64,000 nucleotides of DNA from Natrialba hulunbeirensis JCM 10989 (lineage in GTDB: Archaea; Halobacteriota; Halobacteria; Halobacteriales; Natrialbaceae), in NCBI RefSeq assembly GCF_000337575.1, contig NZ_AOIM01000035.1, positions 111,498 to 175,497 on the forward strand, written 5' to 3'. Below the pieces are notes generated by a model. That model was given only the letters and a program-made list of their open reading frames with translations. It was not told the DNA's origin and did not search any database. Within the stretch, counting starts at the first letter, position 1; each line of letters opens with the position of its first letter. Positions 29,543 to 53,549 of this stretch are shown in pieces. Position numbers and translations under genes: made by a program.

Positions 29543-29933
29543 GGCTACCGAAGCAGGGACCGTCAGCCGGCCGTGGGGTACAGGCTGAACGCACGGAGTG
29601 GATTCGACCAGCCGACCGGCCGATCAGCCGATCATCCGGCCAGCCGACCAGCCGACCAGCCGACCAGCCGACCAGCCGACCAGCCGAATAACCGAATGAC
29701 CGAACAGCCGAAAGCGTCTCGCGTACACAGTCTGCCCACAGCACCGGCAGTTGGGTCAGGCGGGCCCCATCGCCCAGTGTCTGTCACGCCCTTCTCAGAG
29801 CTAGCCAATGAGCGTTGTGGAACTGTGAGCAGGGGTGTACTCGAGTCCGACTCGGAGTCCGCACCGTTAGCCACCACAGCCAGCAGCCATCGCGAAGGAA
29901 AAGACCCAAGGTTAGACTGGCTCTAAAACAGCC
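29543..29933. other. divergent intergenic region between crcB and the CDF gene
   Basis: About 390 bases without a credible gene. The part near crcB is filled by the 8-bp tandem repeats at 29605-29716, which keep several frames open and create spurious proline/arginine-rich or tryptophan/glycine-rich reading frames. The right part should hold the promoter for the CDF transporter gene. Confidence 0.6.
29605..29716. repeat. tandem 8-bp repeat array (CGACCAGC), about 14 units
   Basis: Fourteen successive 8-base units start at 29605. Six are exactly CGACCAGC (one at the start and five in a row at 29645-29684), and the others differ by one to four bases, decaying toward the right end (CGAATAAC, CGAATGAC, CGAACAGC, CGAAAGCG). 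The array has the same period and GACC-type core as the array at 16073-16120 read on the other strand. Confidence 0.88.
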
Positions 29934-43291: not shown

Positions 43292-44290
43292 CTACTCAGA
43301 TGCTGACTCGATTTCGGATTCTGTCTCGCTCTTTGTCTCTGTCTCTGTCTCTGTCTCCGACTCCGACCTTGACTTTGACTCTGTCTCTGTCTCGAGTGCC
43401 CGAAGTTTCTTGACTGTCGCTCGGATCGTTGTGGCTGCGACGTCTGCGACAGCAGCAGCGTCGGCCTGCGTGATGGTTGGCCACTCATCGCGTTCACCGG
43501 CAGCATGGTAGAGACAGGCTGCGGCGACGCCGCTTGGGTTGCTGCCACAGATTCGGTTTGCCTGCTGTAGTGCGGTGACGTGTTCGTGTGCGCGTCGCTC
43601 GGTAGGCATCTCGAGATCGAGTTCTGAGGCGAACCGTGGGAGATAGTGAGTGGGATCGATCGGTCCGGTTTCGAGTCCGAGCTCGCGATTGAGGGCGGAA
43701 TAGGCGGCTTTGAGTTCGGCTTCGTCTGCGGATGCGACGGTAAGGATTTCGTCGATCGTTCGTGGGAGGTCGTGGATACGACAGATTGCGTAGACGACTG
43801 CAGCGGCAAAGCCTTCGAGTGAGCGACCCTGGAGGAGATTTTCGGATTGGGCGCTGTCGAACAGGGCACAGGCCTGCTCGGTGATGGGGTCGGTTAGCGA
43901 TAGTCGGGCGACGATGCATTTGATTTCGTTGAACGCACGAATCTGGTTGTACTCTGCTTTCGTTCCGATCTGTGAACGGGTGTGTTCGCGCTGCAGCCTG
44001 GTGAGCTGGCGGCGCTTGCGGCCGGTGATTCGTGTGCTCCGGTCGAACTGTGACCCGGGCCCGTATCCGATCATCGTTGACAGCCCCCGGTCGTGTCGTG
44101 AGCGAGTGAGCGGGGCACCGGTTCGGCGACGATCAGTCGGATCGTCGGCAAAAGACCGCCACTCAGGGCCACGATCGATCGGATCAGTGTCAACGACGGC
44201 ACCACACTCCTCGCAGATCGTTTCCGTTTCGCGCTCCCGGAGTATTCCATCGCACTCCGGACAGTGAGTCGACGAATCGTTGCGCTCCAT
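43292..44290 (-). CDS. tfb: transcription initiation factor TFB with acidic Glu/Ser/Thr tail
   Basis: This 332-residue TFIIB homologue has the N-terminal zinc ribbon (Cys10, Cys13, Cys26, Cys29), a B-reader region (GPEWRSFADDPTDRRRTGAPLT ... DRGLSTMIG) and two cyclin folds. TFB recruits RNA polymerase to TATA/TBP complexes. Haloarchaea have several TFBs that direct different gene sets. After the second cyclin fold it carries a 35-residue tail of alternating Glu, Thr and Ser encoded by a GTCTCT-type repeat, absent from standard TFBs. The ATG lies about 40 bases downstream of a TTTAAA element at 44332-44337 read on this strand. Confidence 0.93.
   Translation of the reverse strand: MERNDSSTHCPECDGILRERETETICEECGAVVDTDPIDRGPEWRSFADDPTDRRRTGAPLTRSRHDRGLSTMIGYGPGSQFDRSTRITGRKRRQLTRLQREHTRSQIGTKAEYNQIRAFNEIKCIVARLSLTDPITEQACALFDSAQSENLLQGRSLEGFAAAVVYAICRIHDLPRTIDEILTVASADEAELKAAYSALNRELGLETGPIDPTHYLPRFASELDLEMPTERRAHEHVTALQQANRICGSNPSGVAAACLYHAAGERDEWPTITQADAAAVADVAATTIRATVKKLRALETETESKSRSESETETETETKSETESEIESASE
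43316..43393. repeat. GTCTCT-type hexanucleotide repeat within the tfb 3' end
   Basis: Imperfect runs of GTCTCT/GACTCT (plus strand) fill the last codons of tfb, with the cleanest block at 43333-43357. In frame they encode the Glu-Thr-Glu-Ser tail. Slippage in such a repeat would lengthen or shorten the tail in steps of two residues. Confidence 0.75.
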
Positions 44291-52195: not shown

Positions 52196-52795
52196 CTACA
52201 GTTCTTCGATACTGCCGTCAGCTTCGCGCTCGCGGAAGACCTGGCCTTCGAACAGCGTGACGACGACGTCGTCGTCCTGCCAGGCAGTCGGTGCGAGTTT
52301 GGCCTTGCGGCAGGTCCGATCGAGATACTCACGTTCGCTCCAGCCGTTTTCGACGGGCACTGTCGGGTAGAGCCAGCCACCCTCGCCGCCGTCGATGGCG
52401 ACACCGTGCGTGCCGAGTTCGATATCCGTGAGTGGATCGTCGGTGAGGACGACGTTTTTGACCGCACAGACCGAGACCGTGAGATTTGGCAACTCGGAGG
52501 GGCTTACCTCGGAGCCACAGGAGTCTTCGCTGGCGGCCTCGATCGCCGCGTCGACGATGACGTGACCGAGCTGTTCACCCGAGCGGTAGCCGCCGGCGCA
52601 GCCGCGCAGGCTGCCGCGACCGCGGGTGGACTCGAGCCGAACGAACGCACCGGTTCGCTCGTAGAAGCTCTCACGCATGCTCCCTGGTTGTTCTCGTTGG
52701 CCGTGTTCGACGTAGGATTCGACGGCTTCACGCGCGAGTTCGACCGCTCGCGCACCGTCTTCGTAGGAAAGGTTGACGCCCTGTCCCTGGGACAT
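52196..52795 (-). CDS. AMMECR1 domain protein (TIGR00296 family)
   Basis: This 199-residue protein is the archaeal AMMECR1 homologue. The diagnostic motif LRGCAGGY (here RGSLRGCAGGYRSG) lies near residues 70-80, followed by LPNLTVSVCAVKN and the C-terminal WLYPTVPVENGWSEREYLDRTCRKAKL. The family is widespread in archaea and eukaryotes but its biochemical role is not settled. The start MSQGQGVNLSYEDG was chosen; a longer start 12 bases upstream is possible. It is divergent from rnpB. Confidence 0.9.
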   Translation of the reverse strand: MSQGQGVNLSYEDGARAVELAREAVESYVEHGQREQPGSMRESFYERTGAFVRLESTRGRGSLRGCAGGYRSGEQLGHVIVDAAIEAASEDSCGSEVSPSELPNLTVSVCAVKNVVLTDDPLTDIELGTHGVAIDGGEGGWLYPTVPVENGWSEREYLDRTCRKAKLAPTAWQDDDVVVTLFEGQVFREREADGSIEEL

Positions 52796-52950
52796 ACACG
52801 TGTACATGAGACAGTCGTCCTAAAACGCTTCCATTCGGTTCGAAAATCAAACCACTGGGTGGTAGCGTTCCGATAGTGACACGTATTGTGGCTATCGACA
52901 ATCGACTGTGGCTTCGACCGAGGGACTTATTCGCTACTAGCACCTAGAAA

Positions 52951-53549
52951 TGGTGGAGAGAGAGCCTGGCTGCCGCGGCGGCGATCCTGGCAACGGGATG
53001 GCCGTGCAACGCGGACTACCCCTTCGGGGTGGCCCGCGCTCTTACCGTTGCCCGACTCTCCGAGTCGCGCAACGTGCCTAACGTGGGCCGTCTCTTCGAG
53101 ACGCCCCACGCTCCTAACGTTGGCCAACCCTCCGGGTTGCCCAACGCTCGCGAGGAAAGTCCCCCCACCTGTTCGGGCAGGTGACCGGACGCAAGTCCGG
53201 AGCGGGAGACCGCTGGCTCTGGAACAGAAACGACACGTCTCGGCCCGACCGATGATGCGTGCGAACCCGACCGAGAGGAAGGGGAGTCAACCCGCAGAGG
53301 GACGGCGACTCGGAGCGCCTCTGGCGCACGAGCTGCCGAGCGGTGTGTGGTCGGCGTTCACGGTTCGAAACCGTGGATCGTGCTCGTCACGATCGACCAC
53401 ACAGAGACGGCCGAGGATCGATGGAACGGCGAACCCTCACCGGTGCAAGTCCACGCCGTGGTAGCCCGAACACCACGGCTTTGCCGTGACGGCGTGGACG
53501 CTCAGCCGAATGCCGGGATGAACAGAAGGGGGCTTACTCCTCTCACCAA
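52951..53549 (+). ncRNA. rnpB: RNase P RNA
   Basis: This is the catalytic RNA that matures tRNA 5' ends. CR-I (GAGGAAAGTCC) lies at 53152-53162 and the 3' conserved block ACAGAAGGGGGCTTAC at 53522-53537. P1 is formed by TGGTG plus AGAG at the 5' end (52951-52960) and CTCTCACCA at the 3' end, and P3 by 52979-53004. The molecule is about 600 nt, clearly longer than the roughly 430-460 nt usual for haloarchaea. The extra length is mostly the 144-nt hairpin array between P3 and CR-I. A short T-run follows the gene. Confidence 0.95.
53010..53146 (+). repeat. four tandem 36-nt hairpin units inside RNase P RNA
   Basis: Units begin at 53010, 53046, 53082 and 53118, exactly 36 bases apart. Each has a 29-nt hairpin: an outer 6-bp stem, a 2x2 internal loop (CC opposite GC in units 2-4), an inner 5-bp stem and a 3-base loop (TTC or TCC), then a 7-nt linker (CTCTTAC, TGCCTAA, CTCCTAA, CTCGCGA). 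Outer stems are CGTTGC/GCAACG, CGTGGG/CCCACG and CGTTGG/CCAACG in units 2-4. Inner stems are ACCCC/GGGGT, GACTC/GAGTC, GTCTC/GAGAC and AACCC/GGGTT. The paired changes show selection for the fold. Confidence 0.9.

Follow-up and report, generated by a model that had tools for sequence, protein, structure and literature searches.

Archaeal RNase P RNA of type A (Rfam family RF00373) has a core with conserved CR-I and 3′ regions, and the Rfam model has one short hairpin at P3. In the RNase P of M. jannaschii, P3 lies in the C domain, with Pop5 at the P2/P3 junction (PMC6565675). The same helix is elaborated in eukaryotic RNase P and RNase MRP, where P3 is a single internal-loop domain that binds Rpp20-Rpp25. 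The expansion segments found at the periphery of RNase P and ribosomal RNAs are likewise self-contained helices attached to a conserved core. Tandem repeats within the RNase P RNA gene occur in cyanobacteria; these STRR repeats are 7-nt units of a kind that is also dispersed in the genome. Their presence in rnpB of heterocyst-forming species was described by Vioque (1997), a study cited in PMC2858038.

The rnpB gene studied here lies in a 64,000-nt stretch of Natrialba hulunbeirensis JCM 10989 DNA (G000:C35:111498-175497; hereafter, the window). It shares its core and its CR-I and 3′ regions with RF00373, but in place of the one short P3 hairpin it carries a hairpin, P3a, followed by four more. 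Unlike STRR repeats, these four are hairpin modules restricted to rnpB, whose stems covary and whose neighbors differ from one another; the period is 36 nt, the units are only about 71% alike, and there are no other copies in the genome. The array differs from expansion segments in being a repeated module of variable number, whose types are common to several genera and permuted between them, and from the eukaryotic P3 domain, which has no repeat array. Nor is it CRISPR-like, since the units are unlike one another and the linkers are 7 nt long and similar to each other. A repeated P3 hairpin may have been drawn earlier in the literature, perhaps for Halococcus. No description of such an array in RNase P RNA was found in the open literature, a coverage that stops short of the 1996 and 2001 archaeal comparative papers. 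The array is best read as a modular, fast-turnover expansion of P3 borne as insulated peripheral hairpins.

The rnpB locus and its hairpin array

The RF00373 match covers positions 53134 to 53542 of the window with 124.7 bits (gathering threshold, 84), and the two universally conserved parts, CR-I and the 3′ region, are both present, which places the RNA in the family. Together with P1 and P2, this bears out the original prediction that the array sits inside RNase P RNA. The alignment to RF00373 that had been proposed as a check recovered the core but left the 5′ part of the array outside the match, which starts inside the last unit, 18 nt before CR-I. The 5′ part of the gene was set by comparison with one-unit relatives (Table 1). 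A single short P3 hairpin, a consensus feature that is not essential for membership, is replaced here by P3a plus the four units, and these units explain much of the unusual length of this rnpB, as had been supposed.

Table 1 Features of the rnpB locus (positions in the window)
Feature	Position	Strand	Basis or remark
Probable promoter, BRE/TATA-like CCGAGGGACTTATTC	52918..52934	+	upstream of P1
rnpB, archaeal type A RNase P RNA	52950..53549	+	~600 nt
P1 of rnpB	52951-52960 with 53540-53548	+	strands read directly off the sequence
P2 of rnpB	52965-52970 with 53512-53517	+	strands read directly off the sequence
P3a hairpin, GCAA (GNRA) tetraloop	about 52978-53005	+	fold
Hairpin unit 1, type A, CGCGGACTACCCC...	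53010..53038	+	fold; unit model R1, 41.1 bits
Hairpin unit 2, type C, CGTTGCCCGACTC...	53046..53074	+	fold; R1 match
Hairpin unit 3, type D, CGTGGGCCGTCTC...	53082..53110	+	fold; R1 match
Hairpin unit 4, type B, CGTTGGCCAACCC...	53118..53146	+	fold; R1 match
CR-I (GAGGAAAGTCC)	53152..53162	+	3′ border of the array; sequence and RF00373 match

In rnpB genes with 1 to 4 units, the TATA-like box stands at a median of ~31 nt before the 5′ region of P2. Because this box lies upstream of P1, the array is expected inside the primary transcript and is probably transcribed as part of it. Upstream of rnpB is a divergently transcribed gene (52196-52807, minus strand), which we take to encode an AMMECR1-domain protein and whose relatives adjoin rnpB in many haloarchaea. 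The arm of the P12 region (53238-53412) is likewise enlarged and branched, and the distance from CR-I to the 3′ motif ranges from ~250 to >500 nt among relatives. Elsewhere in the window are the octamer CGACCAGC repeated in tandem in ~10 copies (29605-29687), an adjoining array of the octamer CCGAATAA (29684-29712), and ~12 copies of the hexamer TCTGTC (43320-43393).

Between P3a and CR-I, four 29-nt hairpins are joined by 7-nt linkers, so that the start-to-start distance is exactly 36 nt. Positions, folds, and Tandem Repeats Finder (53037-53149, period 36, 71% matches, score 121) agree on this predicted arrangement. Some details had to be corrected. The internal loop, described before as 2x2 followed by 5 bp, folds as a 1x1 mismatch of two C residues with a C-G pair after it, and a single unit is thus a hairpin of 6 bp, the mismatch, another 6 bp, and a 3-nt loop; the predicted fold of unit 1 differs (5 bp + 1x1 + 7 bp). 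The array does not add 144 nt: it is 137 nt long, and its excess over a one-unit sister species is 108 nt (3 x 36). Finally, the hairpin that had been called helix P3 (52979-53004) is present, but its identity is that of P3a, a GNRA-capped stem.

Each unit on its own was more stable than all 200 shuffled versions (z of −4.1 to −5.4), the 147-nt array fold had a z of −7.7 against shuffles, and in the ensemble of full-length rnpB the pair probabilities of the four hairpins were 0.90 to 0.99. P3a has a GNRA loop in 110 of the 111 relatives with at least one unit, and its stem varies freely while the cap stays. A tertiary contact is suggested because the loop is kept although the stem is free to change. 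When one unit per species was taken, P3a was less alike between genera than the units were (mean nearest distance, 4.8 compared to 3.0).

Distribution and turnover among haloarchaea

RF00373 was matched in 123 of 125 Natrialbaceae genomes, and the stretch from P2 to CR-I was examined in 120 of them, with unit number assigned by length. The lengths cluster at 88, 124, 160, 196, and 230 nt, a step of ~36 nt. There were no units in 9 genomes, one in 42, two in 42, three in 17, four in 6, and five in 1, and the remaining three, all of genus g11, have a longer P3 elaboration of another kind. The typical P3 region of the family is thus a GNRA-capped hairpin plus one to four units, rarely none. Most Natrialbaceae carry units, so the array is not unique to this genome. 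Unit number does vary among relatives (0 to 5), the point on which a comparison had been proposed; and since order is also permuted, the array is not an invariant set of four hairpins shared by most haloarchaea and described in the consensus, the finding that was to have marked it as an ordinary structural feature. In the three g11 genomes (L091, L094, and L090), P2 to CR-I spans 262 to 276 nt with eight or nine predicted hairpins, of which the last one or two alone resemble the 36-nt unit.

Most of the P3 regions sampled from other haloarchaeal families consist of a single short hairpin, for example GTGCCTCTGGCAT in Halorubrum. A single P3b-like unit beside P3a was found in genus g35 of family f7 (L215, L237, L238, L247, and L262). 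R1, a covariance model built for the unit, was scanned across 293 genomes of the order and matched in 45, all but three of them Natrialbaceae; among the matches listed, the Natrialbaceae ones are at rnpB. The three from other families comprise one at rnpB and two weak ones elsewhere, in protein-coding-looking stretches. Separate tandem arrays occupy the same P3 site in two members of family f6, genus g34 (L236 and L239), and in L243 of family f14. These consist of two or three copies of a shorter hairpin of about 18 to 20 nt, for example GTGCCAGCGGGCACGCAC, and are independent of the Natrialbaceae units. P3 could be a hot spot at which haloarchaea acquire tandem hairpins.

Close relatives differ in both number and order of units. 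The Natrialba species compared included N. chahannaoensis, N. aegyptia, N. asiatica, N. taiwanensis, and Natrialba sp. SSL1. Outside the array, this rnpB shares 97.9% identity with the gene of SSL1, which has three units in the order A-B-C compared to the four (A-C-D-B) found here, and 96.7% with the gene of N. chahannaoensis, which has D alone. An example of permuted order is TGGA-TGAT-TTGG in G074, G056, and G058 compared to TGAT-TTGG-TGGA in G057. Of the 19 genera represented by several species, 10 vary in unit number, and a tree of the rnpB core requires a minimum of 42 changes in this number, compared to 62 with shuffled labels.

The units themselves recur across genera. The 148 units represent 108 distinct 29-mers, and one and the same 29-mer was found in as many as five genera. 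In the array studied here, unit 2 is identical in sequence to units of G045 (a Natrialba genome that we take to be N. magadii-like) and of two other genera, unit 4 is identical to units of genus g15, and unit 3 differs by one base from the only unit that N. chahannaoensis has. Identical unit pairs between genera are 55 times as frequent as expected if base pairs varied independently, and there is a statistical association between outer and inner stems (mutual information of 1.83 bits compared to 0.88 when shuffled), a linkage that the hairpin fold alone does not demand. This identity across genera and the stem linkage point to common descent of unit types, exchange between species, or both.

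Pairing within units and unlikeness between neighbors

The original prediction held that the stem sequences of the units differ while pairing is kept, and this covariation holds in related species. A first set of 67 units had 97.4% of its cells paired, with changes on both sides in 8 of the 12 pairs, but these units had been selected for pairing and the set is biased. Because such selection biases the result, the analysis was repeated on last units chosen solely by their distance to CR-I. At least 11 of 12 pairs form in 63 of the 84 distinct last units, and 85% of cells pair compared to 68.5% when the 3′ letters are reshuffled. Several of the last units that fall short of this look displaced by a 1-nt length change. 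The C-C mismatch is present in 62 of the 108 distinct units (57%), and some have a Watson-Crick pair there. The pairing of units is maintained by compensatory changes.

Units of the same array are at least as different from each other as units from different species. Fresh duplication is rejected on this basis, in line with the original reading. None of the 82 within-array pairs is identical and only two have three or fewer mismatches, compared to an average of 10 such pairs when units are shuffled within genus pools (P = 0.0005), a test that is inflated by the orthologous copies that sister species contribute. With an all-genera pool the signal is weaker: 6.9 close pairs compared to the two observed (P = 0.03), with P = 0.05 for the mean distance.

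Computed folds suggest a reason for this unlikeness. Two identical neighbors are predicted to form one 24-bp hairpin, which joins arm 1 of the first unit to arm 2 of the second and the two inner arms to one another; the probability that they fold separately is 0.02. This probability rises to ~0.8 at four differences and to >0.9 at six. Natural neighbors have a mean of 0.92, compared to 0.82 in genus-pool shuffles (0 of 300 as high) and 0.85 in all-pool shuffles (P = 0.02). The L063 array contains neighbors predicted not to fold separately, and for the short, near-identical P3 hairpins of L236 and L239 the calculation predicts fusion of this kind into a single long hairpin. The modeling suggests that fusion of identical neighbors may explain the unlikeness within arrays. 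Selection would be the cause, but deletion of near-identical repeats at the DNA level would yield the same unlikeness without selection at the RNA level, and cotranscriptional folding may favor local hairpins even when neighbors are identical.

Explanations for the array and their meaning

We consider it rather probable that the array is a lineage-specific modular expansion of P3 with fast turnover, in which fold-insulated modules are kept unlike by selection. An ancestral single P3 hairpin would have been replaced by a fixed GNRA-capped P3a plus a 29-nt P3b in Natrialbaceae and in one genus of a neighboring family, and P3b would then have multiplied into tandem modules of 36 nt, with a number (1 to 5), order, and type that turn over quickly through unit gain, loss, recombination, or slippage, within and probably between species. 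The tolerant loop beside P3 would accept such modules because every one of them forms a hairpin by itself, at the edge of the catalytic domain. Selection would keep every module paired and neighbors dissimilar, because identical neighbors would refold into one long hairpin; a copy that folds on its own would survive best, so that unlike modules build up and identical ones are lost. On this account, the array would be retained in mature RNase P RNA, tolerated rather than beneficial, with a neutral or mild effect on the enzyme. Recombination would be the presumed route of change and exchange between species the presumed supply of modules. Possible, but to be held tentatively, is a bolder version in which the array is a recombining cassette array within an essential ribozyme, supplied by exchange between species from a small cross-genus module pool and reshuffled, with selection for fold insulation deciding which combinations survive.

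A purely neutral slippage array, in which the unlikeness of units is a by-product of the deletion of near-identical repeats, would fit the lability of unit number and the faster deletion expected of identical copies. We think it rather unlikely, since near-universal compensatory pairing and identical types across genera need constraint or recent exchange. The hairpins might instead be a multivalent platform, each of them a binding site for a protein of RNase P or for some other RNA-binding protein, with unit number tuning dose or localization. The fold, the C-C mismatch (62 of 108 distinct units), the pyrimidine-rich UYC-type triloop, and the CG base pairs are kept, and there are protein neighbors at this helix, Pop5 where P2 meets P3 in M. 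jannaschii (PMC6565675) and Rpp20-Rpp25 on the eukaryotic P3 (PMC4919922). It is nevertheless improbable: number (0 to 5), order, and stem sequence vary freely among close species, which is too labile for a strict multivalent site, only 57% of distinct units have the mismatch and some have a Watson-Crick pair instead, and some Natrialbaceae have no unit at all.

The array might also be cut out of the RNA. Inserts are processed out of structural RNAs in other systems, and a tolerant loop filled with autonomous hairpins would suit an intervening segment whose removal from the precursor would leave the mature RNase P RNA split or shortened. This is quite improbable, however, as one-unit relatives would be cut as well and the full-length fold has the units alongside the P1/P2 closing region. 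On inspection, the predicted folds of the units and of the array showed no archaeal splicing-endonuclease motif of the bulge-helix-bulge intron type, which has two 3-nt bulges 4 bp apart at the exon-intron junctions. A mobile palindromic repeat (MITE- or REP-like) that settled in rnpB, one of the origins first proposed, is highly improbable. The units are indeed palindromic and variable in number, but in seven Natrialba genomes R1 found no copies outside rnpB save one weak match of 29 bits (G000:C35:292703) inside a TetR-like gene, and it had no match in phages or plasmids. The mobile repeat was rejected because these searches found no dispersed genomic copies.

The modular expansion of P3 that we favor has a practical consequence for annotation. 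The RF00373 match covers the 5′ strand of P2 in all nine genomes with no unit and in 40 of the 42 with one unit, but in none of the 57 with two or more. In these 57 the model systematically drops the 5′ end of rnpB, P1 and P2 included, and this loss may explain why the array has been overlooked. For the family, the arrays are a natural experiment on the growth of a structured, essential RNA, as modules come and go between sister species whose cores are 96 to 98% identical. A simple folding rule, that identical neighbors fuse, may explain which arrays persist, and the stepwise expansion of an RNA becomes testable in culturable haloarchaea.
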